The position numbers and the translations under genes were made by a program. From Brachionus manjavacas (Eukaryota > Rotifera > Eurotatoria > Ploima > Brachionidae), in the NCBI GenBank assembly GCA_019054805.1, contig JAHQIY010000023.1, positions 1,036,609-1,100,608 of the forward strand: a stretch of DNA of 64,000 nucleotides. The letters run 5' to 3'. The notes beneath the pieces are model-generated. The model worked only from the letters and a program-made list of their open reading frames with translations. It made no database searches and was not told where the DNA came from. This document shows, piece by piece, positions 5,860 to 64,000 of this stretch (positions are counted from its first letter, which is position 1; every line of letters begins with the position of its first letter).

Positions 5860-5908
5860 TTTTTAGGAGATAGGTTCAGTAATTATAGAGATGGATTAAA
5901 TATAACCC
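5860..5908 (-). repeat. Right terminal inverted repeat of the MULE
   Basis: Inverted partner of 4028-4076, ending ATATAACCC, directly followed by the second copy of the 9-bp duplication ATTTTATTT at 5909-5917. Confidence 0.85.
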
Positions 5909-5917
5909 ATTTTATTT

Positions 5918-7097: not shown

Positions 7098-7162
7098 AGA
7101 ACTGATCAGAATTCAATTTTCAAGACTTTAGAAGATTTGAAAATTGAATTCTGATCAGTTCT
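7098..7162. repeat. Perfect 26-bp inverted repeat (hairpin)
   Basis: Arms 7098-7123 and 7137-7162 are exact reverse complements, separated by a 13-nt loop (GACTTTAGAAGAT). Weaker complementarity continues outward for about 12 nt (CTTTAGATGA against CTTTATGACT), so a transcript would form a stem of 26-38 bp. It ends 207 bp before the TBC1D24 start codon. It could be a miRNA-precursor-like hairpin, a tiny foldback element or a cruciform-forming site. No family is recognised. Confidence 0.8.
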
Positions 7163-7342
7163 TAAGTAGTCATAAAGAAAAGCTCTTTTCTTTTTTATCT
7201 TATCTACAAGTTCAGCTATATTAAATTACCACAATCATCAAGTTTTATCTTGAAGCAAAAGAATAAGTTTCAATGCAAATTTTGACTTTAATTGAACTAT
7301 CACGTGATTTAAAATTAAAAATTAGAAAAAAATTTAGATCAG

Positions 7343-7360
7343 ATGAAAGTTTCAAAATAA
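7343..7360 (+). promoter_or_regulatory. Possible minimal upstream ORF of TBC1D24
   Basis: ATG AAA GTT TCA AAA TAA lies 9 nt before the proposed TBC1D24 start and in the same frame. If transcription begins upstream of 7343, ribosomes would meet this five-codon frame first. Its TAA also rules out a longer N-terminus in this frame from unspliced sequence. Whether this part is in the mRNA is unknown. Confidence 0.25.
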
Positions 7361-7369
7361 CTTCAAATA

Positions 7370-13865: not shown

Positions 13866-14205
13866 TAAAAAGTTCTACATCTAGAGTTTAAAGGAGTCCA
13901 AAAATGAAAAAGGAGGAGAAATTAGGCGACTTCGAAAATGAGCAAAAAACCCACTTTTTTACGTTTTTCAGATAGGTTTTTTGCAATGAATTTTTCGAAT
14001 TATGGAAAACCGAAGATACCACTAGATAGATCTTGAAATTTTCTTGACTTTGGCTTTTACAGATCAAAAAAAGGTCAAAGATTCGAAAAGCTATGCACAT
14101 GGGAAACTTGCAAGTGATTACCAGTCACTTAGTTTTCAATTCACTGCAGAATGGTCAATTTTTTAGCTACGATAATGATTAATAGCTCAAATTCAAGATC
14201 GCAAA
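13866..14205. repeat. Diverged edge monomer of the satellite
   Basis: The outermost unit differs from the consensus more than any other: TCTACATCTAGAGTTTAAAG replaces TCTACATGATACAATTTACA, GGAGGAGAAATTAGGCGAC replaces the ACAAGATTTTAGGCGAC linker, ACGTTTTTC is preceded by a changed T-run, GATCGC replaces GAGCGC, and GCTATGC replaces GTTATGC. Such decay at the end of an array is typical where unequal crossing-over no longer homogenises units. Confidence 0.8.
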
Positions 14206-17200
14206 AAGTTCTACATGATACAATTTACAGGACTCAAAAAATATAAAAGGACAAGATTTTAGGCGACTTCGAAAATGAGCAAAAAACCCATTTTTTGACG
14301 TTTTTCAGAAAGGCTTTTTTGCAATAAATTTTTCGAATTATGGAAAACCGAAGATACCAATAGATAGATCTTGAAATTTTCTTGACTTTGGCTTTTACAG
14401 ATCAAAAAATAGTCAAAGATTCGAAAAGTTATGCACATGGGAAACTTGCAAGTGATTACCAGTCACTTAGTTTTCAATTCACTGCAGAATGGTCAATTTT
14501 TTAGCTACGATAATAATTAATAGCTCAAATTCAAGAGCGCAAAAAGTTCTACATGATACAATTTACAGGACTCAAAAAAAATAAAAGGACAAGATTTTAG
14601 GCGACTTCGAAAATGAGCAAAAAACCCATTTTTTGACGTTTTTCAGATAGGCTTTTTGCAATGAATTTTTCGAATTATGGAAAACCGAAGATACCACTAG
14701 ATAGATCTTGAAATTTTCTTGACTTTGGCTTTTACAGATCAAAAAAAGGTCAAAGATTCGAAAAGTTATGCACATGGGAAACTTGCAAGTGATTACCAGT
14801 CACTTAGTTTTCAATTCACTGCAGAATGGTCAATTTTTTAGCTACGATAATGATTAATAGCTCAAATTCAAGAGCGCAAAAAGTTCTACATGATACAATT
14901 TACAGGACTCAAAAAATATAAAAGGACAAGATTTTAGGCGACTTCGAAAATGAGCAAAAAACCCATTTTTTGACGTTTTTCAGATAGGCTTTTTGCAATG
15001 AATTTTTCGAATTATGGAAAACCGAAGATACCACTAGATAGATCTTGAAATTTTCTTGACTTTGGCTTTTACAGATCAAAAAATAGTCAAAGATTCGAAA
15101 AGTTATGCACATGGGAAACTTGCAAGTGATTACCAGTCACTTAGTTTTCAATTCACTGCAGAATGGTCAATTTTTTAGCTACGATAATAATTAATAGCTC
15201 AAATTCAAGAGCGCAAAAAGTTCTACATGATACAATTTACAGGACTCAAAAAAGTTAAAAGGACAAGATTTTAGGCGACTTCGAAAATGAGCAAAAAACC
15301 CATTTTTTGACGTTTTTCAGATAGGTTTTTTGCAATGAATTTTTCGAATTATGGAAAACCGAAGATACCACTAGATAGATCTTGAAATTTTCTTGACTTT
15401 GGCTTTTACAGATCAAAAAAAGGTCAAAGATTCGAAAAGTTATGCACATGGGAAACTTGCAAGTGATTACCAGTCACTTAGTTTTCAATTCACTGCAGAA
15501 TGGTCAATTTTTTAGCTACGATAATGATTAATAGCTCAAATTCAAGAGCGCAAAAAGTTCTACATGATACAATTTACAGGACTCAAAAAAGTTAAAAGGA
15601 CAAGATTTTAGGCGACTTCGAAAATGAGCAAAAAACCCATTTTTTGACGTTTTTCAGAAAGGCTTTTTTGCAATAAATTTTTCGAATTATGGAAAACCGA
15701 AGATACCACTAGATAGATCTTGAAATTTTCTTGACTTTGGCTTTTACAGATCAAAAAAAGGTCAAAGATTCGAAAAGTTATGCACATGGGAAACTTGCAA
15801 GTGATTACCAGTCACTTAGTTTTCAATTCACTGCAGAATGGTCAATTTTTTAGCTACGATAATGATTAATAGCTTAAAATTAAGAGCGCAAAAAGTTCTA
15901 CATGATACAATTTACAGGACTCAAAAAAGTTAAAAGGACAAGATTTTAGGCGACTTCGAAAATGAGCAAAAAACCCATTTTTTGACGTTTTTCAGATAGG
16001 TTTTTTGCAATGAATTTTTCGAATTATGGAAAACCGAAGATACCACTAGATAGATCTTGAAATTTTCTTGACTTTGGCTTTTACAGATCAAAAAAAGGTC
16101 AAAGATTCGAAAAGTTATGCACATGGGAAACTTGCAAGTGATTACCAGTCACTTAGTTTTCAATTCACTGCAGAATGGTCAATTTTTTAGCTACGATAAT
16201 GATTAATAGCTCAAATTCAAGAGCGCAAAAAGTTCTACATGATACAATTTACAGGACTCAAAAAAGTTAAAAGGACAAGATTTTAGGCGACTTCGAAAAT
16301 GAGCAAAAAACCCATTTTTTGACGTTTTTCAGATAGGTTTTTTGCAATGAATTTTTCGAATTATGGAAAACCGAAGATACCACTAGATAGATCTTGAAAT
16401 TTTCTTGACTTTGGCTTTTACAGATCAAAAAAAGGTCAAAGATTCGAAAAGTTATGCACATGGGAAACTTGCAAGTGATTACCAGTCACTTAGTTTTCAA
16501 TTCACTGCAGAATGGTCAATTTTTTAGCTACGATAATGATTAATAGCTCAAATTCAAGAGCGCAAAAAGTTCTACATGATACAATTTACAGGACTCAAAA
16601 AATATAAAAGGACAAGATTTTAGGCGACTTCGAAAATGAGCAAAAAACCCATTTTTTGACGTTTTTCAGATAGGTTTTTTGCAATGAATTTTTCGAATTA
16701 TGGAAAACCGAAGATACCACTAGATAGATCTTGAAATTTTCTTGACTTTGGCTTTTACAGATCAAAAAAGGTCAAAGATTCGAAAAGTTATGCACATGGG
16801 AAACTTGCAAGTGATTACCAGTCACTTAGTTTTCAATTCACTGCAGAATGGTCAATTTTTTAGCTACGATAATGATTAATAGCTCAAATTCAAGAGCGCA
16901 AAAAGTTCTACATGATACAATTTACAGGACTCAAAAAAGTTAAAAGGACAAGATTTTAGGCGACTTCGAAAATGAGCAAAAAACCCATTTTTTGACGTTT
17001 TTCAGATAGGTTTTTTGCAATGAATTTTTCGAATTATGGAAAACCGAAGATACCACTAGATAGATCTTGAAATTTTCTTGACTTTGGCTTTTACAGATCA
17101 AAAAAAGGTCAAAGATTCGAAAAGTTATGCACATGGGAAACTTGCAAGTGATTACCAGTCACTTAGTTTTCAATTCACTGCAGAATGGTCAATTTTTTAG

Positions 17201-20200
17201 CTACGATAATGATTAATAGCTCAAATTCAAGAGCGCAAAAAGTTCTACATGATACAATTTACAGGACTCAAAAAATATAAAAGGACAAGATTTTAGGCGA
17301 CTTCGAAAATGAGCAAAAAACCCATTTTTTGACGTTTTTCAGATAGGTTTTTTGCAATGAATTTTTCGAATTATGGAAAACCGAAGATACCACTAGATAG
17401 ATCTTGAAATTTTCTTGACTTTGGCTTTTACAGATCAAAAAAAGGTCAAAGATTCGAAAAGTTATGCACATGGGAAACTTGCAAGTGATTACCAGTCACT
17501 TAGTTTTCAATTCACTGCAGAATGGTCAATTTTTTAGCTACGATAATGATTAATAGCTCAAATTCAAGAGCGCAAAAAGTTCTACATGATACAATTTACA
17601 GGACTCAAAAAAGTTAAAAGGACAAGATTTTAGGCGACTTCGAAAATGAGCAAAAAACCCATTTTTTGACGTTTTTCAGATAGGTTTTTTGCAATGAATT
17701 TTTCGAATTATGGAAAACCGAAGATACCACTAGATAGATCTTGAAATTTTCTTGACTTTGGCTTTTACAGATCAAAAAAAGGTCAAAGATTCGAAAAGTT
17801 ATGCACATGGGAAACTTGCAAGTGATTACCAGTCACTTAGTTTTCAATTCACTGCAGAATGGTCAATTTTTTAGCTACGATAATGATTAATAGCTCAAAT
17901 TCAAGAGCGCAAAAAGTTCTACATGATACAATTTACAGGACTCAAAAAAGTTAAAAGGACAAGATTTTAGGCGACTTCGAAAATGAGCAAAAAACCCATT
18001 TTTTGACGTTTTTCAGATAGGTTTTTTGCAATGAATTTTTCGAATTATGGAAAACCGAAGATACCACTAGATAGATCTTGAAATTTTCTTGACTTTGGCT
18101 TTTACAGATCAAAAAAGGTCAAAGATTCGAAAAGTTATGCACATGGGAAACTTGCAAGTGATTACCAGTCACTTAGTTTTCAATTCACTGCAGAATGGTC
18201 AATTTTTTAGCTACGATAATGATTAATAGCTCAAATTCAAGAGCGCAAAAAGTTCTACATGATACAATTTACAGGACTCAAAAAATATAAAAGGACAAGA
18301 TTTTAGGCGACTTCGAAAATGAGCAAAAAACCCATTTTTTGACGTTTTTCAGATAGGTTTTTTGCAATGAATTTTTCGAATTATGGAAAACCGAAGATAC
18401 CACTAGATAGATCTTGAAATTTTCTTGACTTTGGCTTTTACAGATCAAAAAAGGTCAAAGATTCGAAAAGTTATGCACATGGGAAACTTGCAAGTGATTA
18501 CCAGTCACTTAGTTTTCAATTCACTGCAGAATGGTCAATTTTTTAGCTACGATAATGATTAATAGCTCAAATTCAAGAGCGCAAAAAGTTCTACATGATA
18601 CAATTTACAGGACTCAAAAAAGTTAAAAGGACAAGATTTTAGGCGACTTCGAAAATGAGCAAAAAACCCATTTTTTGACGTTTTTCAGATAGGTTTTTTG
18701 CAATGAATTTTTCGAATTATGGAAAACCGAAGATACCACTAGATAGATCTTGAAATTTTCTTGACTTTGGCTTTTACAGATCAAAAAAAGGTCAAAGATT
18801 CGAAAAGTTATGCACATGGGAAACTTGCAAGTGATTACCAGTCACTTAGTTTTCAATTCACTGCAGAATGGTCAATTTTTTAGCTACGATAATGATTAAT
18901 AGCTCAAATTCAAGAGCGCAAAAAGTTCTACATGATACAATTTACAGGACTCAAAAAAGTTAAAAGGACAAGATTTTAGGCGACTTCGAAAATGAGCAAA
19001 AAACCCATTTTTTGACGTTTTTCAGATAGGTTTTTTGCAATGAATTTTTCGAATTATGGAAAACCGAAGATACCACTAGATAGATCTTGAAATTTTCTTG
19101 ACTTTGGCTTTTACAGATCAAAAAAAGGTCAAAGATTCGAAAAGTTATGCACATGGGAAACTTGCAAGTGATTACCAGTCACTTAGTTTTCAATTCACTG
19201 CAGAATGGTCAATTTTTTAGCTACGATAATGATTAATAGCTCAAATTCAAGAGCGCAAAAAGTTCTACATGATACAATTTACAGGACTCAAAAAATATAA
19301 AAGGACAAGATTTTAGGCGACTTCGAAAATGAGCAAAAAACCCATTTTTTGACGTTTTTCAGATAGGTTTTTTGCAATGAATTTTTCGAATTATGGAAAA
19401 CCGAAGATACCACTAGATAGATCTTGAAATTTTCTTGACTTTGGCTTTTACAGATCAAAAAAAGGTCAAAGATTCGAAAAGTTATGCACATGGGAAACTT
19501 GCAAGTGATTACCAGTCACTTAGTTTTCAATTCACTGCAGAATGGTCAATTTTTTAGCTACGATAATAATTAATAGCTCAAATTCAAGAGCGCAAAAAGT
19601 TCTACATGATACAATTTACAGGACTCAAAAAAGTTAAAAGGACAAGATTTTAGGCGACTTCGAAAATGAGCAAAAAACCCATTTTTTGACGTTTTTCAGA
19701 TAGGTTTTTTGCAATGAATTTTTCGAATTATGGAAAACCGAAGATACCACTAGATAGATCTTGAAATTTTCTTGACTTTGGCTTTTACAGATCAAAAAAA
19801 GGTCAAAGATTCGAAAAGTTATGCACATGGGAAACTTGCAAGTGATTACCAGTCACTTAGTTTTCAATTCACTGCAGAATGGTCAATTTTTTAGCTACGA
19901 TAATGATTAATAGCTCAAATTCAAGAGCGCAAAAAGTTCTACATGATACAATTTACAGGACTCAAAAAAGTTAAAAGGACAAGATTTTAGGCGACTTCGA
20001 AAATGAGCAAAAAACCCATTTTTTGACGTTTTTCAGATAGGTTTTTTGCAATGAATTTTTCGAATTATGGAAAACCGAAGATACCACTAGATAGATCTTG
20101 AAATTTTCTTGACTTTGGCTTTTACAGATCAAAAAAAGGTCAAAGATTCGAAAAGTTATGCACATGGGAAACTTGCAAGTGATTACCAGTCACTTAGTTT

Positions 20201-23200
20201 TCAATTCACTGCAGAATGGTCAATTTTTTAGCTACGATAATAATTAATAGCTCAAATTCAAGAGCGCAAAAAGTTCTACATGATACAATTTACAGGACTC
20301 AAAAAAGTTAAAAGGACAAGATTTTAGGCGACTTCGAAAATGAGCAAAAAACCCATTTTTTGACGTTTTTCAGATAGGTTTTTTGCAATGAATTTTTCGA
20401 ATTATGGAAAACCGAAGATACCACTAGATAGATCTTGAAATTTTCTTGACTTTGGCTTTTACAGATCAAAAAAAGGTCAAAGATTCGAAAAGTTATGCAC
20501 ATGGGAAACTTGCAAGTGATTACCAGTCACTTAGTTTTCAATTCACTGCAGAATGGTCAATTTTTTAGCTACGATAATGATTAATAGCTCAAATTCAAGA
20601 GCGCAAAAAGTTCTACATGATACAATTTACAGGACTCAAAAAAATAAAAGGACAAGATTTTAGGCGACTTCGAAAATGAGCAAAAAACCCATTTTTTGAC
20701 GTTTTTCAGATAGGTTTTTTGCAATGAATTTTTCGAATTATGGAAAACCGAAGATACCACTAGATAGATCTTGAAATTTTCTTGACTTTGGCTTTTACAG
20801 ATCAAAAAAAGGTCAAAGATTCGAAAAGTTATGCACATGGGAAACTTGCAAGTGATTACCAGTCACTTAGTTTTCAATTCACTGCAGAATGGTCAATTTT
20901 TTAGCTACGATAATGATTAATAGCTCAAATTCAAGAGCGCAAAAAGTTCTACATGATACAATTTACAGGACTCAAAAAAAATAAAAGGACAAGATTTTAG
21001 GCGACTTCGAAAATGAGCAAAAAACCCATTTTTTGACGTTTTTCAGATAGGTTTTTTGCAATGAATTTTTCGAATTATGGAAAACCGAAGATACCACTAG
21101 ATAGATCTTGAAATTTTCTTGACTTTGGCTTTTACAGATCAAAAAAAGGTCAAAGATTCGAAAAGTTATGCACATGGGAAACTTGCAAGTGATTACCAGT
21201 CACTTAGTTTTCAATTCACTGCAGAATGGTCAATTTTTTAGCTACGATAATGATTAATAGCTCAAATTCAAGAGCGCAAAAAGTTCTACATGATACAATT
21301 TACAGGACTCAAAAAAGTTAAAAGGACAAGATTTTAGGCGACTTCGAAAATGAGCAAAAAACCCATTTTTTGACGTTTTTCAGATAGGTTTTTTGCAATG
21401 AATTTTTCGAATTATGGAAAACCGAAGATACCACTAGATAGATCTTGAAATTTTCTTGACTTTGGCTTTTACAGATCAAAAAAAGGTCAAAGATTCGAAA
21501 AGTTATGCACATGGGAAACTTGCAAGTGATTACCAGTCACTTAGTTTTCAATTCACTGCAGAATGGTCAATTTTTTAGCTACGATAATGATTAATAGCTC
21601 AAATTCAAGAGCGCAAAAAGTTCTACATGATACAATTTACAGGACTCAAAAAAGTTAAAAGGACAAGATTTTAGGCGACTTCGAAAATGAGCAAAAAACC
21701 CATTTTTTGACGTTTTTCAGATAGGTTTTTTGCAATGAATTTTTCGAATTATGGAAAACCGAAGATACCACTAGATAGATCTTGAAATTTTCTTGACTTT
21801 GGCTTTTACAGATCAAAAAAAGGTCAAAGATTCGAAAAGTTATGCACATGGGAAACTTGCAAGTGATTACCAGTCACTTAGTTTTCAATTCACTGCAGAA
21901 TGGTCAATTTTTTAGCTACGATAATGATTAATAGCTCAAATTCAAGAGCGCAAAAAGTTCTACATGATACAATTTACAGGACTCAAAAAGAAAAAGGACA
22001 AGATTTTAGGCGACTTCGAAAATGAGCAAAAAACCCATTTTTTGACGTTTTTCAGATAGGTTTTTTGCAATGAATTTTTCGAATTATGGAAAACCGAAGA
22101 TACCACTAGATAGATCTTGAAATTTTCTTGACTTTGGCTTTTACAGATCAAAAAAAGGTCAAAGATTCGAAAAGTTATGCACATGGGAAACTTGCAAGTG
22201 ATTACCAGTCACTTAGTTTTCAATTCACTGCAGAATGGTCAATTTTTTAGCTACGATAATGATTAATAGCTCAAATTCAAGAGCGCAAAAAGTTCTACAT
22301 GATACAATTTACAGGACTCAAAAAAGTTAAAAGGACAAGATTTTAGGCGACTTCGAAAATGAGCAAAAAACCCATTTTTTGACGTTTTTCAGATAGGTTT
22401 TTTGCAATGAATTTTTCGAATTATGGAAAACCGAAGATACCACTAGATAGATCTTGAAATTTTCTTGACTTTGGCTTTTACAGATCAAAAAAAGGTCAAA
22501 GATTCGAAAAGTTATGCACATGGGAAACTTGCAAGTGATTACCAGTCACTTAGTTTTCAATTCACTGCAGAATGGTCAATTTTTTAGCTACGATAATGAT
22601 TAATAGCTCAAATTCAAGAGCGCAAAAAGTTCTACATGATACAATTTACAGGACTCAAAAAAATAAAAGGACAAGATTTTAGGCGACTTCGAAAATGAGC
22701 AAAAAACCCATTTTTTGACGTTTTTCAGATAGGTTTTTTGCAATGAATTTTTCGAATTATGGAAAACCGAAGATACCACTAGATAGATCTTGAAATTTTC
22801 TTGACTTTGGCTTTTACAGATCAAAAAAAGGTCAAAGATTCGAAAAGTTATGCACATGGGAAACTTGCAAGTGATTACCAGTCACTTAGTTTTCAATTCA
22901 CTGCAGAATGGTCAATTTTTTAGCTACGATAATGATTAATAGCTCAAATTCAAGAGCGCAAAAAGTTCTACATGATACAATTTACAGGACTCAAAAAAGT
23001 TAAAAGGACAAGATTTTAGGCGACTTCGAAAATGAGCAAAAAACCCATTTTTTGACGTTTTTCAGATAGGTTTTTTGCAATGAATTTTTCGAATTATGGA
23101 AAACCGAAGATACCACTAGATAGATCTTGAAATTTTCTTGACTTTGGCTTTTACAGATCAAAAAAAGGTCAAAGATTCGAAAAGTTATGCACATGGGAAA

Positions 23201-26200
23201 CTTGCAAGTGATTACCAGTCACTTAGTTTTCAATTCACTGCAGAATGGTCAATTTTTTAGCTACGATAATGATTAATAGCTCAAATTCAAGAGCGCAAAA
23301 AGTTCTACATGATACAATTTACAGGACTCAAAAAAGTTAAAAGGACAAGATTTTAGGCGACTTCGAAAATGAGCAAAAAACCCATTTTTTGACGTTTTTC
23401 AGATAGGTTTTTTGCAATGAATTTTTCGAATTATGGAAAACCGAAGATACCACTAGATAGATCTTGAAATTTTCTTGACTTTGGCTTTTACAGATCAAAA
23501 AAAGGTCAAAGATTCGAAAAGTTATGCACATGGGAAACTTGCAAGTGATTACCAGTCACTTAGTTTTCAATTCACTGCAGAATGGTCAATTTTTTAGCTA
23601 CGATAATGATTAATAGCTCAAATTCAAGAGCGCAAAAAGTTCTACATGATACAATTTACAGGACTCAAAAAAGTTAAAAGGACAAGATTTTAGGCGACTT
23701 CGAAAATGAGCAAAAAACCCATTTTTTGACGTTTTTCAGATAGGTTTTTTGCAATGAATTTTTCGAATTATGGAAAACCGAAGATACCACTAGATAGATC
23801 TTGAAATTTTCTTGACTTTGGCTTTTACAGATCAAAAAAAGGTCAAAGATTCGAAAAGTTATGCACATGGGAAACTTGCAAGTGATTACCAGTCACTTAG
23901 TTTTCAATTCACTGCAGAATGGTCAATTTTTTAGCTACGATAATGATTAATAGCTCAAATTCAAGAGCGCAAAAAGTTCTACATGATACAATTTACAGGA
24001 CTCAAAAAAGTTAAAAGGACAAGATTTTAGGCGACTTCGAAAATGAGCAAAAAACCCATTTTTTGACGTTTTTCAGATAGGTTTTTTGCAATGAATTTTT
24101 CGAATTATGGAAAACCGAAGATACCACTAGATAGATCTTGAAATTTTCTTGACTTTGGCTTTTACAGATCAAAAAAAGGTCAAAGATTCGAAAAGTTATG
24201 CACATGGGAAACTTGCAAGTGATTACCAGTCACTTAGTTTTCAATTCACTGCAGAATGGTCAATTTTTTAGCTACGATAATGATTAATAGCTCAAATTCA
24301 AGAGCGCAAAAAGTTCTACATGATACAATTTACAGGACTCAAAAAAGTTAAAAGGACAAGATTTTAGGCGACTTCGAAAATGAGCAAAAAACCCATTTTT
24401 TGACGTTTTTCAGATAGGTTTTTTGCAATGAATTTTTCGAATTATGGAAAACCGAAGATACCACTAGATAGATCTTGAAATTTTCTTGACTTTGGCTTTT
24501 ACAGATCAAAAAAAGGTCAAAGATTCGAAAAGTTATGCACATGGGAAACTTGCAAGTGATTACCAGTCACTTAGTTTTCAATTCACTGCAGAATGGTCAA
24601 TTTTTTAGCTACGATAATGATTAATAGCTCAAATTCAAGAGCGCAAAAAGTTCTACATGATACAATTTACAGGACTCAAAAAAGTTAAAAGGACAAGATT
24701 TTAGGCGACTTCGAAAATGAGCAAAAAACCCATTTTTTGACGTTTTTCAGATAGGTTTTTTGCAATGAATTTTTCGAATTATGGAAAACCGAAGATACCA
24801 CTAGATAGATCTTGAAATTTTCTTGACTTTGGCTTTTACAGATCAAAAAAAGGTCAAAGATTCGAAAAGTTATGCACATGGGAAACTTGCAAGTGATTAC
24901 CAGTCACTTAGTTTTCAATTCACTGCAGAATGGTCAATTTTTTAGCTACGATAATGATTAATAGCTCAAATTCAAGAGAGCAAAAAGTTCTACATGATAC
25001 AATTTACAGGACTCAAAAAAATTAAAAGGACAAGATTTTAGGCGACTTCGAAAATGAGCAAAAAACCCATTTTTTGACGTTTTTCAGATAGGTTTTTTGC
25101 AATGAATTTTTCGAATTATGGAAAACCGAAGATACCACTAGATAGATCTTGAAATTTTCTTGACTTTGGCTTTTACAGATCAAAAAAAGGTCAAAGATTC
25201 GAAAAGTTATGCACATGGGAAACTTGCAAGTGATTACCAGTCACTTAGTTTTCAATTCACTGCAGAATGGTCAATTTTTTAGCTACGATAATGATTAATA
25301 GCTCAAATTCAAGAGCGCAAAAAGTTCTACATGATACAATTTACAGGACTCAAAAAAATAAAAGGACAAGATTTTAGGCGACTTCGAAAATGAGCAAAAA
25401 ACCCATTTTTTGACGTTTTTCAGATAGGTTTTTTGCAATGAATTTTTCGAATTATGGAAAACCGAAGATACCACTAGATAGATCTTGAAATTTTCTTGAC
25501 TTTGGCTTTTACAGATCAAAAAAAGGTCAAAGATTCGAAAAGTTATGCACATGGGAAACTTGCAAGTGATTACCAGTCACTTAGTTTTCAATTCACTGCA
25601 GAATGGTCAATTTTTTAGCTACGATAATGATTAATAGCTCAAATTCAAGAGCGCAAAAAGTTCTACATGATACAATTTACAGGACTCAAAAAAGTTAAAA
25701 GGACAAGATTTTAGGCGACTTCGAAAATGAGCAAAAAACCCATTTTTTGACGTTTTTCAGATAGGTTTTTTGCAATGAATTTTTCGAATTATGGAAAACC
25801 GAAGATACCACTAGATAGATCTTGAAATTTTCTTGACTTTGGCTTTTACAGATCAAAAAAAGGTCAAAGATTCGAAAAGTTATGCACATGGGAAACTTGC
25901 AAGTGATTACCAGTCACTTAGTTTTCAATTCACTGCAGAATGGTCAATTTTTTAGCTACGATAATGATTAATAGCTCAAATTCAAGAGCGCAAAAAGTTC
26001 TACATGATACAATTTACAGGACTCAAAAAAGTTAAAAGGACAAGATTTTAGGCGACTTCGAAAATGAGCAAAAAACCCATTTTTTGACGTTTTTCAGATA
26101 GGTTTTTTGCAATGAATTTTTCGAATTATGGAAAACCGAAGATACCACTAGATAGATCTTGAAATTTTCTTGACTTTGGCTTTTACAGATCAAAAAAGGT

Positions 26201-49600: not shown

Positions 49601-52600
49601 CAGGACTCAAAAAAGTTAAAAGGACAAGATTTTAGGCGACTTCGAAAATGAGCAAAAAACCCATTTTTTGACGTTTTTCAGATAGGTTTTTTGCAATGAA
49701 TTTTTCGAATTATGGAAAACCGAAGATACCACTAGATAGATCTTGAAATTTTCTTGACTTTGGCTTTTACAGATCAAAAAAAGGTCAAAGATTCGAAAAG
49801 TTATGCACATGGGAAACTTGCAAGTGATTACCAGTCACTTAGTTTTCAATTCACTGCAGAATGGTCAATTTTTTAGCTACGATAATAATTAATAGCTCAA
49901 ATTCAAGAGCGCAAAAAGTTCTACATGATACAATTTACAGGACTCAAAAAAGTTAAAAGGACAAGATTTTAGGCGACTTCGAAAATGAGCAAAAAACCCA
50001 TTTTTTGACGTTTTTCAGATAGGTTTTTTGCAATGAATTTTTCGAATTATGGAAAACCGAAGATACCACTAGATAGATCTTGAAATTTTCTTGACTTTGG
50101 CTTTTACAGATCAAAAAAAGGTCAAAGATTCGAAAAGTTATGCACATGGGAAACTTGCAAGTGATTACCAGTCACTTAGTTTTCAATTCACTGCAGAATG
50201 GTCAATTTTTTAGCTACGATAATAATTAATAGCTCAAATTCAAGAGCGCAAAAAGTTCTACATGATACAATTTACAGGACTCAAAAAAGTTAAAAGGACA
50301 AGATTTTAGGCGACTTCGAAAATGAGCAAAAAACCCATTTTTTGACGTTTTTCAGATAGGTTTTTTGCAATGAATTTTTCGAATTATGGAAAACCGAAGA
50401 TACCACTAGATAGATCTTGAAATTTTCTTGACTTTGGCTTTTACAGATCAAAAAAAGGTCAAAGATTCGAAAAGTTATGCACATGGGAAACTTGCAAGTG
50501 ATTACCAGTCACTTAGTTTTCAATTCACTGCAGAATGGTCAATTTTTTAGCTACGATAATAATTAATAGCTCAAATTCAAGAGCGCAAAAAGTTCTACAT
50601 GATACAATTTACAGGACTCAAAAAAGTTAAAAGGACAAGATTTTAGGCGACTTCGAAAATGAGCAAAAAACCCATTTTTTGACGTTTTTCAGATAGGTTT
50701 TTTGCAATGAATTTTTCGAATTATGGAAAACCGAAGATACCACTAGATAGATCTTGAAATTTTCTTGACTTTGGCTTTTACAGATCAAAAAAAGGTCAAA
50801 GATTCGAAAAGTTATGCACATGGGAAACTTGCAAGTGATTACCAGTCACTTAGTTTTCAATTCACTGCAGAATGGTCAATTTTTTAGCTACGATAATAAT
50901 TAATAGCTCAAATTCAAGAGCGCAAAAAGTTCTACATGATACAATTTACAGGACTCAAAAAAGTTAAAAGGACAAGATTTTAGGCGACTTCGAAAATGAG
51001 CAAAAAACCCATTTTTTGACGTTTTTCAGATAGGTTTTTTGCAATGAATTTTTCGAATTATGGAAAACCGAAGATACCACTAGATAGATCTTGAAATTTT
51101 CTTGACTTTGGCTTTTACAGATCAAAAAAAGGTCAAAGATTCGAAAAGTTATGCACATGGGAAACTTGCAAGTGATTACCAGTCACTTAGTTTTCAATTC
51201 ACTGCAGAATGGTCAATTTTTTAGCTACGATAATAATTAATAGCTCAAATTCAAGAGCGCAAAAAGTTCTACATGATACAATTTACAGGACTCAAAAAAG
51301 TTAAAAGGACAAGATTTTAGGCGACTTCGAAAATGAGCAAAAAACCCATTTTTTGACGTTTTTCAGATAGGTTTTTTGCAATGAATTTTTCGAATTATGG
51401 AAAACCGAAGATACCACTAGATAGATCTTGAAATTTTCTTGACTTTGGCTTTTACAGATCAAAAAAAGGTCAAAGATTCGAAAAGTTATGCACATGGGAA
51501 ACTTGCAAGTGATTACCAGTCACTTAGTTTTCAATTCACTGCAGAATGGTCAATTTTTTAGCTACGATAATAATTAATAGCTCAAATTCAAGAGCGCAAA
51601 AAGTTCTACATGATACAATTTACAGGACTCAAAAAAGTTAAAAGGACAAGATTTTAGGCGACTTCGAAAATGAGCAAAAAACCCATTTTTTGACGTTTTT
51701 CAGATAGGTTTTTTGCAATGAATTTTTCGAATTATGGAAAACCGAAGATACCACTAGATAGATCTTGAAATTTTCTTGACTTTGGCTTTTACAGATCAAA
51801 AAAGGTCAAAGATTCGAAAAGTTATGCACATGGGAAACTTGCAAGTGATTACCAGTCACTTAGTTTTCAATTCACTGCAGAATGGTCAATTTTTTAGCTA
51901 CGATAATAATTAATAGCTCAAATTCAAGAGCGCAAAAAGTTCTACATGATACAATTTACAGGACTCAAAAAAGTTAAAAGGACAAGATTTTAGGCGACTT
52001 CGAAAATGAGCAAAAAACCCATTTTTTGACGTTTTTCAGATAGGTTTTTTGCAATGAATTTTTCGAATTATGGAAAACCGAAGATACCACTAGATAGATC
52101 TTGAAATTTTCTTGACTTTGGCTTTTACAGATCAAAAAAAGGTCAAAGATTCGAAAAGTTATGCACATGGGAAACTTGCAAGTGATTACCAGTCACTTAG
52201 TTTTCAATTCACTGCAGAATGGTCAATTTTTTAGCTACGATAATAATTAATAGCTCAAATTCAAGAGCGCAAAAAGTTCTACATGATACAATTTACAGGA
52301 CTCAAAAAAGTTAAAAGGACAAGATTTTAGGCGACTTCGAAAATGAGCAAAAAACCCATTTTTTGACGTTTTTCAGATAGGTTTTTTGCAATGAATTTTT
52401 CGAATTATGGAAAACCGAAGATACCACTAGATAGATCTTGAAATTTTCTTGACTTTGGCTTTTACAGATCAAAAAAAGGTCAAAGATTCGAAAAGTTATG
52501 CACATGGGAAACTTGCAAGTGATTACCAGTCACTTAGTTTTCAATTCACTGCAGAATGGTCAATTTTTTAGCTACGATAATGATTAATAGCTCAAATTCA

Positions 52601-55600
52601 AGAGCGCAAAAAGTTCTACATGATACAATTTACAGGACTCAAAAAAGTTAAAAGGACAAGATTTTAGGCGACTTCGAAAATGAGCAAAAAACCCATTTTT
52701 TGACGTTTTTCAGATAGGTTTTTTGCAATGAATTTTTCGAATTATGGAAAACCGAAGATACCACTAGATAGATCTTGAAATTTTCTTGACTTTGGCTTTT
52801 ACAGATCAAAAAAAGGTCAAAGATTCGAAAAGTTATGCACATGGGAAACTTGCAAGTGATTACCAGTCACTTAGTTTTCAATTCACTGCAGAATGGTCAA
52901 TTTTTTAGCTACGATAATAATTAATAGCTCAAATTCAAGAGCGCAAAAAGTTCTACATGATACAATTTACAGGACTCAAAAAAGTTAAAAGGACAAGATT
53001 TTAGGCGACTTCGAAAATGAGCAAAAAACCCATTTTTTGACGTTTTTCAGATAGGTTTTTTGCAATGAATTTTTCGAATTATGGAAAACCGAAGATACCA
53101 CTAGATAGATCTTGAAATTTTCTTGACTTTGGCTTTTACAGATCAAAAAAAGGTCAAAGATTCGAAAAGTTATGCACATGGGAAACTTGCAAGTGATTAC
53201 CAGTCACTTAGTTTTCAATTCACTGCAGAATGGTCAATTTTTTAGCTACGATAATAATTAATAGCTCAAATTCAAGAGCGCAAAAAGTTCTACATGATAC
53301 AATTTACAGGACTCAAAAAAGTTAAAAGGACAAGATTTTAGGCGACTTCGAAAATGAGCAAAAAACCCATTTTTTGACGTTTTTCAGATAGGTTTTTTGC
53401 AATGAATTTTTCGAATTATGGAAAACCGAAGATACCACTAGATAGATCTTGAAATTTTCTTGACTTTGGCTTTTACAGATCAAAAAAAGGTCAAAGATTC
53501 GAAAAGTTATGCACATGGGAAACTTGCAAGTGATTACCAGTCACTTAGTTTTCAATTCACTGCAGAATGGTCAATTTTTTAGCTACGATAATAATTAATA
53601 GCTCAAATTCAAGAGCGCAAAAAGTTCTACATGATACAATTTACAGGACTCAAAAAAGTTAAAAGGACAAGATTTTAGGCGACTTCGAAAATGAGCAAAA
53701 AACCCATTTTTTGACGTTTTTCAGATAGGTTTTTTGCAATGAATTTTTCGAATTATGGAAAACCGAAGATACCACTAGATAGATCTTGAAATTTTCTTGA
53801 CTTTGGCTTTTACAGATCAAAAAAAGGTCAAAGATTCGAAAAGTTATGCACATGGGAAACTTGCAAGTGATTACCAGTCACTTAGTTTTCAATTCACTGC
53901 AGAATGGTCAATTTTTTAGCTACGATAATAATTAATAGCTCAAATTCAAGAGCGCAAAAAGTTCTACATGATACAATTTACAGGACTCAAAAAAGTTAAA
54001 AGGACAAGATTTTAGGCGACTTCGAAAATGAGCAAAAAACCCATTTTTTGACGTTTTTCAGATAGGTTTTTTGCAATGAATTTTTCGAATTATGGAAAAC
54101 CGAAGATACCACTAGATAGATCTTGAAATTTTCTTGACTTTGGCTTTTACAGATCAAAAAAAGGTCAAAGATTCGAAAAGTTATGCACATGGGAAACTTG
54201 CAAGTGATTACCAGTCACTTAGTTTTCAATTCACTGCAGAATGGTCAATTTTTTAGCTACGATAATAATTAATAGCTCAAATTCAAGAGCGCAAAAAGTT
54301 CTACATGATACAATTTACAGGACTCAAAAAAGTTAAAAGGACAAGATTTTAGGCGACTTCGAAAATGAGCAAAAAACCCATTTTTTGACGTTTTTCAGAT
54401 AGGTTTTTTGCAATGAATTTTTCGAATTATGGAAAACCGAAGATACCACTAGATAGATCTTGAAATTTTCTTGACTTTGGCTTTTACAGATCAAAAAAAG
54501 GTCAAAGATTCGAAAAGTTATGCACATGGGAAACTTGCAAGTGATTACCAGTCACTTAGTTTTCAATTCACTGCAGAATGGTCAATTTTTTAGCTACGAT
54601 AATAATTAATAGCTCAAATTCAAGAGCGCAAAAAGTTCTACATGATACAATTTACAGGACTCAAAAAAGTTAAAAGGACAAGATTTTAGGCGACTTCGAA
54701 AATGAGCAAAAAACCCATTTTTTGACGTTTTTCAGATAGGTTTTTTGCAATGAATTTTTCGAATTATGGAAAACCGAAGATACCACTAGATAGATCTTGA
54801 AATTTTCTTGACTTTGGCTTTTACAGATCAAAAAAGGTCAAAGATTCGAAAAGTTATGCACATGGGAAACTTGCAAGTGATTACCAGTCACTTAGTTTTC
54901 AATTCACTGCAGAATGGTCAATTTTTTAGCTACGATAATAATTAATAGCTCAAATTCAAGAGCGCAAAAAGTTCTACATGATACAATTTACAGGACTCAA
55001 AAAAGTTAAAAGGACAAGATTTTAGGCGACTTCGAAAATGAGCAAAAAACCCATTTTTTGACGTTTTTCAGATAGGTTTTTTGCAATGAATTTTTCGAAT
55101 TATGGAAAACCGAAGATACCACTAGATAGATCTTGAAATTTTCTTGACTTTGGCTTTTACAGATCAAAAAAAGGTCAAAGATTCGAAAAGTTATGCACAT
55201 GGGAAACTTGCAAGTGATTACCAGTCACTTAGTTTTCAATTCACTGCAGAATGGTCAATTTTTTAGCTACGATAATGATTAATAGCTCAAATTCAAGAGC
55301 GCAAAAAGTTCTACATGATACAATTTACAGGACTCAAAAAAGTTAAAAGGACAAGATTTTAGGCGACTTCGAAAATGAGCAAAAAACCCATTTTTTGACG
55401 TTTTTCAGATAGGTTTTTTGCAATGAATTTTTCGAATTATGGAAAACCGAAGATACCACTAGATAGATCTTGAAATTTTCTTGACTTTGGCTTTTACAGA
55501 TCAAAAAAAGGTCAAAGATTCGAAAAGTTATGCACATGGGAAACTTGCAAGTGATTACCAGTCACTTAGTTTTCAATTCACTGCAGAATGGTCAATTTTT

Positions 55601-58600
55601 TAGCTACGATAATAATTAATAGCTCAAATTCAAGAGCGCAAAAAGTTCTACATGATACAATTTACAGGACTCAAAAAAGTTAAAAGGACAAGATTTTAGG
55701 CGACTTCGAAAATGAGCAAAAAACCCATTTTTTGACGTTTTTCAGATAGGTTTTTTGCAATGAATTTTTCGAATTATGGAAAACCGAAGATACCACTAGA
55801 TAGATCTTGAAATTTTCTTGACTTTGGCTTTTACAGATCAAAAAAAGGTCAAAGATTCGAAAAGTTATGCACATGGGAAACTTGCAAGTGATTACCAGTC
55901 ACTTAGTTTTCAATTCACTGCAGAATGGTCAATTTTTTAGCTACGATAATAATTAATAGCTCAAATTCAAGAGCGCAAAAAGTTCTACATGATACAATTT
56001 ACAGGACTCAAAAAAGTTAAAAGGACAAGATTTTAGGCGACTTCGAAAATGAGCAAAAAACCCATTTTTTGACGTTTTTCAGATAGGTTTTTTGCAATGA
56101 ATTTTTCGAATTATGGAAAACCGAAGATACCACTAGATAGATCTTGAAATTTTCTTGACTTTGGCTTTTACAGATCAAAAAAAGGTCAAAGATTCGAAAA
56201 GTTATGCACATGGGAAACTTGCAAGTGATTACCAGTCACTTAGTTTTCAATTCACTGCAGAATGGTCAATTTTTTAGCTACGATAATAATTAATAGCTCA
56301 AATTCAAGAGCGCAAAAAGTTCTACATGATACAATTTACAGGACTCAAAAAAGTTAAAAGGACAAGATTTTAGGCGACTTCGAAAATGAGCAAAAAACCC
56401 ATTTTTTGACGTTTTTCAGATAGGTTTTTTGCAATGAATTTTTCGAATTATGGAAAACCGAAGATACCACTAGATAGATCTTGAAATTTTCTTGACTTTG
56501 GCTTTTACAGATCAAAAAAAGGTCAAAGATTCGAAAAGTTATGCACATGGGAAACTTGCAAGTGATTACCAGTCACTTAGTTTTCAATTCACTGCAGAAT
56601 GGTCAATTTTTTAGCTACGATAATAATTAATAGCTCAAATTCAAGAGCGCAAAAAGTTCTACATGATACAATTTACAGGACTCAAAAAAGTTAAAAGGAC
56701 AAGATTTTAGGCGACTTCGAAAATGAGCAAAAAACCCATTTTTTGACGTTTTTCAGATAGGTTTTTTGCAATGAATTTTTCGAATTATGGAAAACCGAAG
56801 ATACCACTAGATAGATCTTGAAATTTTCTTGACTTTGGCTTTTACAGATCAAAAAAAGGTCAAAGATTCGAAAAGTTATGCACATGGGAAACTTGCAAGT
56901 GATTACCAGTCACTTAGTTTTCAATTCACTGCAGAATGGTCAATTTTTTAGCTACGATAATAATTAATAGCTCAAATTCAAGAGCGCAAAAAGTTCTACA
57001 TGATACAATTTACAGGACTCAAAAAAGTTAAAAGGACAAGATTTTAGGCGACTTCGAAAATGAGCAAAAAACCCATTTTTTGACGTTTTTCAGATAGGTT
57101 TTTTGCAATGAATTTTTCGAATTATGGAAAACCGAAGATACCACTAGATAGATCTTGAAATTTTCTTGACTTTGGCTTTTACAGATCAAAAAAAGGTCAA
57201 AGATTCGAAAAGTTATGCACATGGGAAACTTGCAAGTGATTACCAGTCACTTAGTTTTCAATTCACTGCAGAATGGTCAATTTTTTAGCTACGATAATAA
57301 TTAATAGCTCAAATTCAAGAGCGCAAAAAGTTCTACATGATACAATTTACAGGACTCAAAAAAGTTAAAAGGACAAGATTTTAGGCGACTTCGAAAATGA
57401 GCAAAAAACCCATTTTTTGACGTTTTTCAGATAGGTTTTTTGCAATGAATTTTTCGAATTATGGAAAACCGAAGATACCACTAGATAGATCTTGAAATTT
57501 TCTTGACTTTGGCTTTTACAGATCAAAAAAAGGTCAAAGATTCGAAAAGTTATGCACATGGGAAACTTGCAAGTGATTACCAGTCACTTAGTTTTCAATT
57601 CACTGCAGAATGGTCAATTTTTTAGCTACGATAATAATTAATAGCTCAAATTCAAGAGCGCAAAAAGTTCTACATGATACAATTTACAGGACTCAAAAAA
57701 GTTAAAAGGACAAGATTTTAGGCGACTTCGAAAATGAGCAAAAAACCCATTTTTTGACGTTTTTCAGATAGGTTTTTTGCAATGAATTTTTCGAATTATG
57801 GAAAACCGAAGATACCACTAGATAGATCTTGAAATTTTCTTGACTTTGGCTTTTACAGATCAAAAAAAGGTCAAAGATTCGAAAAGTTATGCACATGGGA
57901 AACTTGCAAGTGATTACCAGTCACTTAGTTTTCAATTCACTGCAGAATGGTCAATTTTTTAGCTACGATAATAATTAATAGCTCAAATTCAAGAGCGCAA
58001 AAAGTTCTACATGATACAATTTACAGGACTCAAAAAAGTTAAAAGGACAAGATTTTAGGCGACTTCGAAAATGAGCAAAAAACCCATTTTTTGACGTTTT
58101 TCAGATAGGTTTTTTGCAATGAATTTTTCGAATTATGGAAAACCGAAGATACCACTAGATAGATCTTGAAATTTTCTTGACTTTGGCTTTTACAGATCAA
58201 AAAAAGGTCAAAGATTCGAAAAGTTATGCACATGGGAAACTTGCAAGTGATTACCAGTCACTTAGTTTTCAATTCACTGCAGAATGGTCAATTTTTTAGC
58301 TACGATAATAATTAATAGCTCAAATTCAAGAGCGCAAAAAGTTCTACATGATACAATTTACAGGACTCAAAAAAGTTAAAAGGACAAGATTTTAGGCGAC
58401 TTCGAAAATGAGCAAAAAACCCATTTTTTGACGTTTTTCAGATAGGTTTTTTGCAATGAATTTTTCGAATTATGGAAAACCGAAGATACCACTAGATAGA
58501 TCTTGAAATTTTCTTGACTTTGGCTTTTACAGATCAAAAAAAGGTCAAAGATTCGAAAAGTTATGCACATGGGAAACTTGCAAGTGATTACCAGTCACTT

Positions 58601-61600
58601 AGTTTTCAATTCACTGCAGAATGGTCAATTTTTTAGCTACGATAATAATTAATAGCTCAAATTCAAGAGCGCAAAAAGTTCTACATGATACAATTTACAG
58701 GACTCAAAAAAGTTAAAAGGACAAGATTTTAGGCGACTTCGAAAATGAGCAAAAAACCCATTTTTTGACGTTTTTCAGATAGGTTTTTTGCAATGAATTT
58801 TTCGAATTATGGAAAACCGAAGATACCACTAGATAGATCTTGAAATTTTCTTGACTTTGGCTTTTACAGATCAAAAAAAGGTCAAAGATTCGAAAAGTTA
58901 TGCACATGGGAAACTTGCAAGTGATTACCAGTCACTTAGTTTTCAATTCACTGCAGAATGGTCAATTTTTTAGCTACGATAATAATTAATAGCTCAAATT
59001 CAAGAGCGCAAAAAGTTCTACATGATACAATTTACAGGACTCAAAAAAGTTAAAAGGACAAGATTTTAGGCGACTTCGAAAATGAGCAAAAAACCCATTT
59101 TTTGACGTTTTTCAGATAGGTTTTTTGCAATGAATTTTTCGAATTATGGAAAACCGAAGATACCACTAGATAGATCTTGAAATTTTCTTGACTTTGGCTT
59201 TTACAGATCAAAAAAAGGTCAAAGATTCGAAAAGTTATGCACATGGGAAACTTGCAAGTGATTACCAGTCACTTAGTTTTCAATTCACTGCAGAATGGTC
59301 AATTTTTTAGCTACGATAATAATTAATAGCTCAAATTCAAGAGCGCAAAAAGTTCTACATGATACAATTTACAGGACTCAAAAAAGTTAAAAGGACAAGA
59401 TTTTAGGCGACTTCGAAAATGAGCAAAAAACCCATTTTTTGACGTTTTTCAGATAGGTTTTTTGCAATGAATTTTTCGAATTATGGAAAACCGAAGATAC
59501 CACTAGATAGATCTTGAAATTTTCTTGACTTTGGCTTTTACAGATCAAAAAAAGGTCAAAGATTCGAAAAGTTATGCACATGGGAAACTTGCAAGTGATT
59601 ACCAGTCACTTAGTTTTCAATTCACTGCAGAATGGTCAATTTTTTAGCTACGATAATAATTAATAGCTCAAATTCAAGAGCGCAAAAAGTTCTACATGAT
59701 ACAATTTACAGGACTCAAAAAAGTTAAAAGGACAAGATTTTAGGCGACTTCGAAAATGAGCAAAAAACCCATTTTTTGACGTTTTTCAGATAGGTTTTTT
59801 GCAATGAATTTTTCGAATTATGGAAAACCGAAGATACCACTAGATAGATCTTGAAATTTTCTTGACTTTGGCTTTTACAGATCAAAAAAAGGTCAAAGAT
59901 TCGAAAAGTTATGCACATGGGAAACTTGCAAGTGATTACCAGTCACTTAGTTTTCAATTCACTGCAGAATGGTCAATTTTTTAGCTACGATAATAATTAA
60001 TAGCTCAAATTCAAGAGCGCAAAAAGTTCTACATGATACAATTTACAGGACTCAAAAAAGTTAAAAGGACAAGATTTTAGGCGACTTCGAAAATGAGCAA
60101 AAAACCCATTTTTTGACGTTTTTCAGATAGGTTTTTTGCAATGAATTTTTCGAATTATGGAAAACCGAAGATACCACTAGATAGATCTTGAAATTTTCTT
60201 GACTTTGGCTTTTACAGATCAAAAAAGGTCAAAGATTCGAAAAGTTATGCACATGGGAAACTTGCAAGTGATTACCAGTCACTTAGTTTTCAATTCACTG
60301 CAGAATGGTCAATTTTTTAGCTACGATAATAATTAATAGCTCAAATTCAAGAGCGCAAAAAGTTCTACATGATACAATTTACAGGACTCAAAAAAGTTAA
60401 AAGGACAAGATTTTAGGCGACTTCGAAAATGAGCAAAAAACCCATTTTTTGACGTTTTTCAGATAGGTTTTTTGCAATGAATTTTTCGAATTATGGAAAA
60501 CCGAAGATACCACTAGATAGATCTTGAAATTTTCTTGACTTTGGCTTTTACAGATCAAAAAAAGGTCAAAGATTCGAAAAGTTATGCACATGGGAAACTT
60601 GCAAGTGATTACCAGTCACTTAGTTTTCAATTCACTGCAGAATGGTCAATTTTTTAGCTACGATAATAATTAATAGCTCAAATTCAAGAGCGCAAAAAGT
60701 TCTACATGATACAATTTACAGGACTCAAAAAAGTTAAAAGGACAAGATTTTAGGCGACTTCGAAAATGAGCAAAAAACCCATTTTTTGACGTTTTTCAGA
60801 TAGGTTTTTTGCAATGAATTTTTCGAATTATGGAAAACCGAAGATACCACTAGATAGATCTTGAAATTTTCTTGACTTTGGCTTTTACAGATCAAAAAAA
60901 GGTCAAAGATTCGAAAAGTTATGCACATGGGAAACTTGCAAGTGATTACCAGTCACTTAGTTTTCAATTCACTGCAGAATGGTCAATTTTTTAGCTACGA
61001 TAATAATTAATAGCTCAAATTCAAGAGCGCAAAAAGTTCTACATGATACAATTTACAGGACTCAAAAAAGTTAAAAGGACAAGATTTTAGGCGACTTCGA
61101 AAATGAGCAAAAAACCCATTTTTTGACGTTTTTCAGATAGGTTTTTTGCAATGAATTTTTCGAATTATGGAAAACCGAAGATACCACTAGATAGATCTTG
61201 AAATTTTCTTGACTTTGGCTTTTACAGATCAAAAAAAGGTCAAAGATTCGAAAAGTTATGCACATGGGAAACTTGCAAGTGATTACCAGTCACTTAGTTT
61301 TCAATTCACTGCAGAATGGTCAATTTTTTAGCTACGATAATAATTAATAGCTCAAATTCAAGAGCGCAAAAAGTTCTACATGATACAATTTACAGGACTC
61401 AAAAAAGTTAAAAGGACAAGATTTTAGGCGACTTCGAAAATGAGCAAAAAACCCATTTTTTGACGTTTTTCAGATAGGTTTTTTGCAATGAATTTTTCGA
61501 ATTATGGAAAACCGAAGATACCACTAGATAGATCTTGAAATTTTCTTGACTTTGGCTTTTACAGATCAAAAAAAGGTCAAAGATTCGAAAAGTTATGCAC

Positions 61601-63650
61601 ATGGGAAACTTGCAAGTGATTACCAGTCACTTAGTTTTCAATTCACTGCAGAATGGTCAATTTTTTAGCTACGATAATAATTAATAGCTCAAATTCAAGA
61701 GCGCAAAAAGTTCTACATGATACAATTTACAGGACTCAAAAAAGTTAAAAGGACAAGATTTTAGGCGACTTCGAAAATGAGCAAAAAACCCATTTTTTGA
61801 CGTTTTTCAGATAGGTTTTTTGCAATGAATTTTTCGAATTATGGAAAACCGAAGATACCACTAGATAGATCTTGAAATTTTCTTGACTTTGGCTTTTACA
61901 GATCAAAAAAAGGTCAAAGATTCGAAAAGTTATGCACATGGGAAACTTGCAAGTGATTACCAGTCACTTAGTTTTCAATTCACTGCAGAATGGTCAATTT
62001 TTTAGCTACGATAATAATTAATAGCTCAAATTCAAGAGCGCAAAAAGTTCTACATGATACAATTTACAGGACTCAAAAAAGTTAAAAGGACAAGATTTTA
62101 GGCGACTTCGAAAATGAGCAAAAAACCCATTTTTTGACGTTTTTCAGATAGGTTTTTTGCAATGAATTTTTCGAATTATGGAAAACCGAAGATACCACTA
62201 GATAGATCTTGAAATTTTCTTGACTTTGGCTTTTACAGATCAAAAAAAGGTCAAAGATTCGAAAAGTTATGCACATGGGAAACTTGCAAGTGATTACCAG
62301 TCACTTAGTTTTCAATTCACTGCAGAATGGTCAATTTTTTAGCTACGATAATGATTAATAGCTCAAATTCAAGAGCGCAAAAAGTTCTACATGATACAAT
62401 TTACAGGACTCAAAAAAGTTAAAAGGACAAGATTTTAGGCGACTTCGAAAATGAGCAAAAAACCCATTTTTTGACGTTTTTCAGATAGGTTTTTTGCAAT
62501 GAATTTTTCGAATTATGGAAAACCGAAGATACCACTAGATAGATCTTGAAATTTTCTTGACTTTGGCTTTTACAGATCAAAAAAAGGTCAAAGATTCGAA
62601 AAGTTATGCACATGGGAAACTTGCAAGTGATTACCAGTCACTTAGTTTTCAATTCACTGCAGAATGGTCAATTTTTTAGCTACGATAATAATTAATAGCT
62701 CAAATTCAAGAGCGCAAAAAGTTCTACATGATACAATTTACAGGACTCAAAAAAGTTAAAAGGACAAGATTTTAGGCGACTTCGAAAATGAGCAAAAAAC
62801 CCATTTTTTGACGTTTTTCAGATAGGTTTTTTGCAATGAATTTTTCGAATTATGGAAAACCGAAGATACCACTAGATAGATCTTGAAATTTTCTTGACTT
62901 TGGCTTTTACAGATCAAAAAAAGGTCAAAGATTCGAAAAGTTATGCACATGGGAAACTTGCAAGTGATTACCAGTCACTTAGTTTTCAATTCACTGCAGA
63001 ATGGTCAATTTTTTAGCTACGATAATAATTAATAGCTCAAATTCAAGAGCGCAAAAAGTTCTACATGATACAATTTACAGGACTCAAAAAAGTTAAAAGG
63101 ACAAGATTTTAGGCGACTTCGAAAATGAGCAAAAAACCCATTTTTTGACGTTTTTCAGATAGGTTTTTTGCAATGAATTTTTCGAATTATGGAAAACCGA
63201 AGATACCACTAGATAGATCTTGAAATTTTCTTGACTTTGGCTTTTACAGATCAAAAAAAGGTCAAAGATTCGAAAAGTTATGCACATGGGAAACTTGCAA
63301 GTGATTACCAGTCACTTAGTTTTCAATTCACTGCAGAATGGTCAATTTTTTAGCTACGATAATAATTAATAGCTCAAATTCAAGAGCGCAAAAAGTTCTA
63401 CATGATACAATTTACAGGACTCAAAAAAGTTAAAAGGACAAGATTTTAGGCGACTTCGAAAATGAGCAAAAAACCCATTTTTTGACGTTTTTCAGATAGG
63501 TTTTTTGCAATGAATTTTTCGAATTATGGAAAACCGAAGATACCACTAGATAGATCTTGAAATTTTCTTGACTTTGGCTTTTACAGATCAAAAAAAGGTC
63601 AAAGATTCGAAAAGTTATGCACATGGGAAACTTGCAAGTGATTACCAGTC
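28651..63650. repeat. Nearly invariant right block of the satellite array
   Basis: From about 28651 the units switch to GATAATAATTAATAG and become almost identical for about 35 kb. The only variation I can see is the six-A version of the run before GGTCAAAG (near 29222, 39668, 48092, 51798, 54830 and 60221) and isolated returns to the TGATT form near 52579, 55275 and 62350. This uniformity points to recent amplification or strong homogenisation, or to consensus smoothing during assembly. Confidence 0.8.
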
Positions 63651-64000
63651 ACTTAGTTTTCAATTCACTGCAGAATGGTCAATTTTTTAGCTACGATAAT
63701 GATTAATAGCTCAAATTCAAGAGCGCAAAAAGTTCTACATGATACAATTTACAGGACTCAAAAAGAAAAAGGACAAGATTTTAGGCGACTTCGAAAATGA
63801 GCAAAAACCCATTTTTTGACGTTTTTCAGATAGGTTTTTTGCAATGAATTTTTCGAATTATGGAAAACCGAAGATACCACTAGATAGATCTTGAAATTTT
63901 CTTGACTTTGGCTTTTACAGATCAAAAAAAGGTCAAAGATTCGAAAAGTTATGCACATGGGAAACTTGCAAGTGATTACCAGTCACTTAGTTTTCAATTC

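Follow-up and report, generated by a model that had tools for sequence, protein, structure and literature searches.

A 337-bp satellite at one end of most long Brachionus manjavacas contigs is a candidate for centromere DNA

Primate alpha satellite is an example of the satellite DNA of regional centromeres. Within the genus Brachionus, the closest described systems are rotiSat1 and rotiSat2 of Brachionus asplanchnoidis, with units of 154 and 143 bp and arrays that reach megabases and vary in copy number (PMC8447722, excerpts); these satellites form copy-number-variable regions in that species. Here we describe a 337-bp satellite of the rotifer Brachionus manjavacas, whose array fills most of a 64,000-nucleotide stretch (the window; C23:1036609-1100608, C23 being contig JAHQIY010000023.1 of assembly GCA_019054805.1). 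It resembles rotiSat1 and rotiSat2 in forming, in the same genus, long homogeneous tandem arrays able to break or dominate contigs, but its 337-bp unit differs from their 154- and 143-bp units, a comparison of unit size and not of sequence. Its likeness to alpha-satellite-like centromeric arrays lies in array-specific variants, a uniform core with a diverged edge, and, on most long contigs, a single block that seems to lie away from telomeres, whereas the unit lacks a CENP-B box and the window lacks a higher-order repeat. With subtelomeric satellites it shares a terminal place on contigs, but the 337-bp arrays lie off the ends that resemble telomere sides (described below) and are not fixed in polarity. 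Located at one end of most long contigs and apparently away from the telomere, the satellite is a promising, though unproven, centromere candidate, and the array in the window is probably, though far from securely, a (peri)centromeric satellite truncated by the assembly.

Chromosome numbers of 2n = 22 and 25 are quoted for the species complex in the excerpts of PMC7145553, whose authors could not obtain enough metaphase plates from B. asplanchnoidis. The word "centromere" does not occur in the accessible parts of that paper or of PMC6555955 and PMC11954553, the latter two of which mention satellites in general, and it occurs once, in general terms, in those of PMC8447722; a literature search, with most subscription papers outside it, found no rotifer centromere sequence. 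A single satellite that marks most long contigs is a probe for fluorescence in situ hybridization, CENP-A mapping, and scaffolding, and it would allow asking whether the genome-size-changing Brachionus satellites are centromeric or another set. Gene editing is established in B. manjavacas (PMC10395877, excerpts).

The array in the window is organized in three zones, which differ in the diversity of their units:

13867..64000, + strand: 337-bp satellite array with 149 unit starts, the last unit (274 bases) being cut by the contig end
13867..15214, + strand: outer edge, units 1-4, four different sequences
15215..28010, + strand: intermediate zone, units 5-42, 12 distinct sequences, the commonest accounting for 21 of 38
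28011..63726, + strand: homogeneous core, units 43-148, 3 distinct sequences, one accounting for 95 of 106

Tandem Repeats Finder reports a single head-to-tail array in the window, with a period of 337, 148.8 copies, and 99% matches, and an anchor search of the + strand with up to 2 substitutions places the 149 unit starts 335-338 apart, at exactly 337 in 129 of 148 spacings. An earlier note on this DNA had described a ~50-kb single-family array of 149 such units without a change of orientation, and both points are borne out, as all units in the window lie on one strand and no interruption or inversion is seen. Counting the cut last unit, the 149 units represent 18 distinct sequences, 96 of them are letter-identical, and mean pairwise identity among units 2-148 is 99.66%. 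Unit 1 is the most diverged full unit (median identity, 0.944), and the passage from a diverged edge to a uniform core is consistent with local exchange accompanied by edge decay. A scan of the window for higher-order repeats at lags of 1-59 gave no peak, with identity flat by lag. GC content is 0.24-0.30 in 2-kb steps before position 14000 and 0.32 within the array. C23 is 1,100,608 bases long and position 64000 is its physical end, and the array is thus truncated. Chance or low complexity was ruled out as a source of the array by the tandem-repeat call and by exact 48-mer matches elsewhere in the genome, for which the control is empty.

Such uniformity could also reflect an effect of assembly or polishing on a real, more varied array, an explanation compatible with any reading of what the satellite does. 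The large share of letter-identical units and the halt of the array at the contig end are in keeping with it, whereas the edge units and array-specific variants retain their positions, so some differences survived. Polishing could have made the core look more uniform than it is, but we consider an assembly or polishing effect a somewhat unlikely source of that uniformity.

The unit itself has a GC content of 0.32 and a longest stop-free run of 72 codons, and a scan of it for the CENP-B box found none. Set against itself without gaps at an offset of 168/169, it matches at 134 of 337 positions, a value reached by none of 500 shuffles and, in a larger control, by 1 of 5,000 at the same offset and, with every offset considered, by 8 of 1,000; the gapped half-to-half alignment is ordinary, with the control reaching it in 55/300 and 241/1,000. 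There is thus a hint only that the unit may derive from an old dimer of ~168-bp units. No exact 26-mer of the satellite was found in viral and prokaryote contig collections, from which the records of this genome are possibly excluded, and the unit matched no named satellite, in a comparison that did not extend to published Brachionus satellite consensus sequences. The satellite represents a known kind of sequence.

The assembly searched contains 114,169,980 bases in 61 contigs (C1-C61); exact matches to a unit 48-mer number 695 + 1,287, with none for the control. When up to 2 mismatches are allowed, a unit 20-mer gives 4,583 matches versus 193 in the control, or ~4,390 units net, and this amounts to at least 1.48 Mb of satellite, ~1.3% of the assembly, which is a floor because the 20-mer gives more than 0.5 matches per unit in only 15 of 19 arrays and because contig ends cut arrays. 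The 337-bp unit is a genome-wide satellite on many contigs, with long head-to-tail arrays of one unit, in many copies and at several loci. The earlier note had named raw long reads with only a few copies at this locus as evidence against it, and the assembly, at least, shows many; it had also proposed a chromosomal or genome-size role, and this floor does not show a large part in genome size. Contamination was ruled out, as the satellite is on contigs that also carry rotifer targets (e.g., C6): the vasa and mlh3 guide-RNA target 20-mers of B. manjavacas (PMC10395877, excerpts) have one exact match each, at C6:3501247 and C28:263281, in a search that permitted up to 2 mismatches and gave no match for the reversed control. 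From these matches the genome is very probably that of B. manjavacas, or of a very close relative.

Units are more alike within than between arrays, as is typical of concerted evolution. In an identity matrix of units from 18 arrays, identity is 97.2% within arrays versus 87.9% between them, and the nearest neighbor is in the same array for 106 of the 125 units sampled. The arrays C2s, C13s, C6e, C8e, C11e, C16s, and C23e (s, contig start; e, contig end) are 97-100% alike, and the most divergent, C1s, is 77% identical to the array in the window. Satellite that is ~87% identical and lies on the other strand also occupies the first 10 kb of C23, a 1.1-Mb contig that thus has satellite at both ends. 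The end of C14, which was excluded from the matrix but included among the satellite ends, carries a 140-bp-period array made from part of the 337-bp unit (C14:2442251-2444250), a possible derived satellite.

To place the satellite on contigs, 42 ends were read, one with some masking: 10 kb at the start of each of C1-C20 and C23, 2 kb at the end of each of C1-C20, and the window. This survey does not extend to the ends of C21, C22, and C24-C61. Satellite fills 19 of the 42, at the starts of C1, C2, C5, C9, C13, C16, and C23, and at the ends of C1, C3, C6, C7, C8, C11, C12, C14, C15 (where it covers 1,808 of 2,000 bases), C17, C19, and C23, and no weak homology to it was found in the 23 other ends. 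Among the 20 longest contigs (C1-C20), it is at exactly one end in 15, at both in one, and at neither in four, a pattern of one block that is counted on contigs and not on assembled chromosomes. With 17 satellite ends dealt randomly over 40, 15 or more one-ended contigs are expected with a P of 0.03.

Contig interiors were sampled, not cleared, with four rare-variant patterns that each catch only some variants. Pattern 1 has 50 matches, with the 24 on C1-C20 all within 70 kb of a contig end, and pattern 2 has 34, with the 15 on C1-C20 all within 30 kb. Pattern 3 has 103, and among the 100 listed, those on C1-C20 are within 43 kb of an end; pattern 4 has 400, and 99 of the 100 listed fall within the C1 and C3 terminal arrays. 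Matches to patterns 1-3 are also present on C22, C24, C25, C26, C28, C34-C37, and C48. Assembly breaks alone could place arrays at contig ends if the satellite formed heterochromatic blocks spread over the chromosomes and had no centromere role, and it is consistent with this that contigs break at tandem arrays generally, that other tandem families occupy other ends, and that islands with satellite on both sides, such as C23, exist. However, by the P value just given, satellite ends fall one per contig more regularly than chance would place them, and blocks of this kind would not be expected to avoid the telomere-side-like ends, which makes heterochromatic blocks an unlikely account.

Several contigs also carry telomere-like repeats. 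Four tandem copies of TTAGGG have 48 matches (20 + 28) in few clusters, with none in a reversed control, and the clusters among C1-C20 are on C6, C8, C14, C15, and C19, at 13-66 kb from the contig start; all five of these contigs have satellite at the opposite end. Ten ends without satellite are tied by shared repeats in two blocks, each of which includes TTAGGG-bearing contigs: C6s, C8s, and C15s form the first and C4s, C11s, C14s, C16e, C17s, C18e, and C19s the second. Satellite is on none of these 10 telomere-side-like ends versus 17 of the 30 other ends of C1-C20 (P 0.001), although the P values are guides only, because the group was defined after seeing the data, and the telomere side is inferred from TTAGGG clusters that are short and not terminal. 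C5e, which is linked to the group at 72-78% identity, was left out; including it gives 0/11 for these ends and 9/11 for satellite at the opposite ends.

Read outward from unique sequence, polarity is + in 8 arrays, - in 10, and both in 1 (C7). A subtelomeric repeat should face the chromosome end in a constant direction; splitting an internal array yields two array ends of opposite polarity. The most similar pairs of terminal 2-kb sequences are C2s/C13s (31-mer Jaccard, 0.81) and C23e/C11e (0.67), both of opposite polarity, and C2-C13 and C23-C11 are therefore predicted to be neighbors across an array. Subtelomeric arrays, located just inside chromosome ends with contigs that stop before the telomere, would account for the placement at contig ends and for the satellite at both ends of C1; at ~114 Mb and a 2n of 22 or 25, the longest contigs would be about chromosome sized, and a one-ended satellite could correspond to one special chromosome end. 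Nonetheless, the arrays adjoin none of the 10 telomere-side-like ends, satellite is missing from the TTAGGG side of all five long contigs with such blocks, and outward direction is not constant, each telomere side here being inferred; moreover, no TTAGGG block is listed on C1-C5, C7, C9-C13, or C16-C18, so their chromosome ends are unseen. We regard a subtelomeric location as improbable.

It is because of the place and polarity of the satellite that a (peri)centromeric location is favored over a subtelomeric or accessory one. The earlier note had offered a pericentromeric, subtelomeric, or accessory edge, of which the chromosomal satellite edge is supported, with the pericentromeric form favored and the subtelomeric one disfavored by the absence from telomere-side-like ends and the mixed polarity. 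The arrays would then be unassembled internal DNA that links the two arms of a chromosome and bears kinetochore chromatin or neighboring heterochromatin, with unequal exchange and gene conversion keeping the core uniform as edge units decay. We advance more tentatively that these could be the first sequence-level candidate rotifer centromere, with regional-monocentric chromosomes each on its own 337-bp variant, gene islands such as C23 in the pericentromere, and the C2-C13 and C23-C11 arms flanking one array each. A search for the CENP-C family PF11699 gave no match and is uninformative, as the control matched 4 of 14 genomes, all prokaryotes, with none over the cutoff.

A number of observations weigh against a (peri)centromeric assignment. 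C1 (12.1 Mb) carries satellite at both ends, C4, C10, C18, and C20 have it at neither, and other tandem families occupy several of the nonsatellite ends, as would follow if contigs broke at any long tandem repeat. The enrichment at ends opposite the telomere-side-like group (8/10 versus 9/20 remaining ends; P 0.07) is not significant alone, the TTAGGG blocks are not only short but lie 13-66 kb in from the contig start, and one of the two C19 clusters (C19:13548) points inward, the other clusters reading outward. Two of the next three most similar pairs of ends (Jaccard, 0.55-0.49) are of the same polarity, and the C6 array inverts, being minus at 6.655-6.666 Mb and plus in the last 2 kb; the C7 array also inverts. 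Matches near the start of C22 and at 1.16 Mb on it are, like the two satellite ends of C1, not explained by a single array per chromosome, and those on C24 extend to 222 kb from the start. The match at C1:1283673 (1.28 Mb) is the only interior one on C1-C20 among the matches listed; it is isolated far inside C1 and may represent a single copy or a short internal array.

Ahead of the array the window carries exons, the three below being on the strand of the satellite units:

1609..2805, + strand: UTP4-like WD40 exon with one match in the genome
7370..8290, + strand: RabGAP-TBC exon of the flanking TBC1D24-like gene (open reading frame [ORF] with domain match)
11873..12292, + strand: TLDc exon of the flanking TBC1D24-like gene (ORF with domain match)
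12293..13866, no strand: AT-rich unique spacer of 1,574 bases from the last exon to the array

The combination of TBC and TLDc is presumably that of TBC1D24, and the RabGAP-TBC and TLDc exons support the homologue that had been noted beside the array. The distance from the stop of the TLDc exon to the array is 1,574 bases, which corrects the first estimate of ~1.4 kb after the gene. Relatives of the WD40 exon include two proteins named U3 small nucleolar RNA-associated protein 4, and because this exon is single copy in the genome, C23 is unlike a dispensable chromosome; its presence speaks for an ordinary one. An accessory (B-like) or copy-number-variable element, as in B. asplanchnoidis, where megabase satellite arrays vary between individuals (PMC8447722, excerpts), is thus very improbable; contigs as long as 12 Mb also bear this satellite, whose unit differs in size from those of rotiSat1 and rotiSat2. 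The accessory option of the earlier note is disfavored by the UTP4-like exon, on which an accessory chromosome was also rejected as our principal interpretation.

Two further features are present among these exons. At window positions 4027-5909, 50-base terminal inverted repeats that are 96% complementary surround ~1.8 kb in what looks like a decayed DNA transposon, and at 7098-7162 a hairpin has a 3-base loop between 31-base arms that are 94% complementary, and microRNA models match it only below their gathering scores.

Contig ends also carry other repeats. The starts of C6, C8, and C15, taken as telomere side, share a second tandem family with units of ~333-357 bp and no detectable similarity to the 337-bp satellite. 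A 156-bp tandem array is located just upstream of the 18S and 5.8S rRNA genes on C10 (4-9988 of C10:1-10000), and the same family, at ~83% identity, is at the start of C7; it may be a spacer repeat of the ribosomal DNA. The first 10 kb of C18 (C18:1-10000) contain a tandem array of 568-bp units at 286-9751, with 12 matches to RAGATH-11 RNA (RF03148) over the gathering score, all on one strand. A literature search found no paper joining RAGATH-11 with a rotifer, and a satellite built from a structured RNA would deserve separate study.

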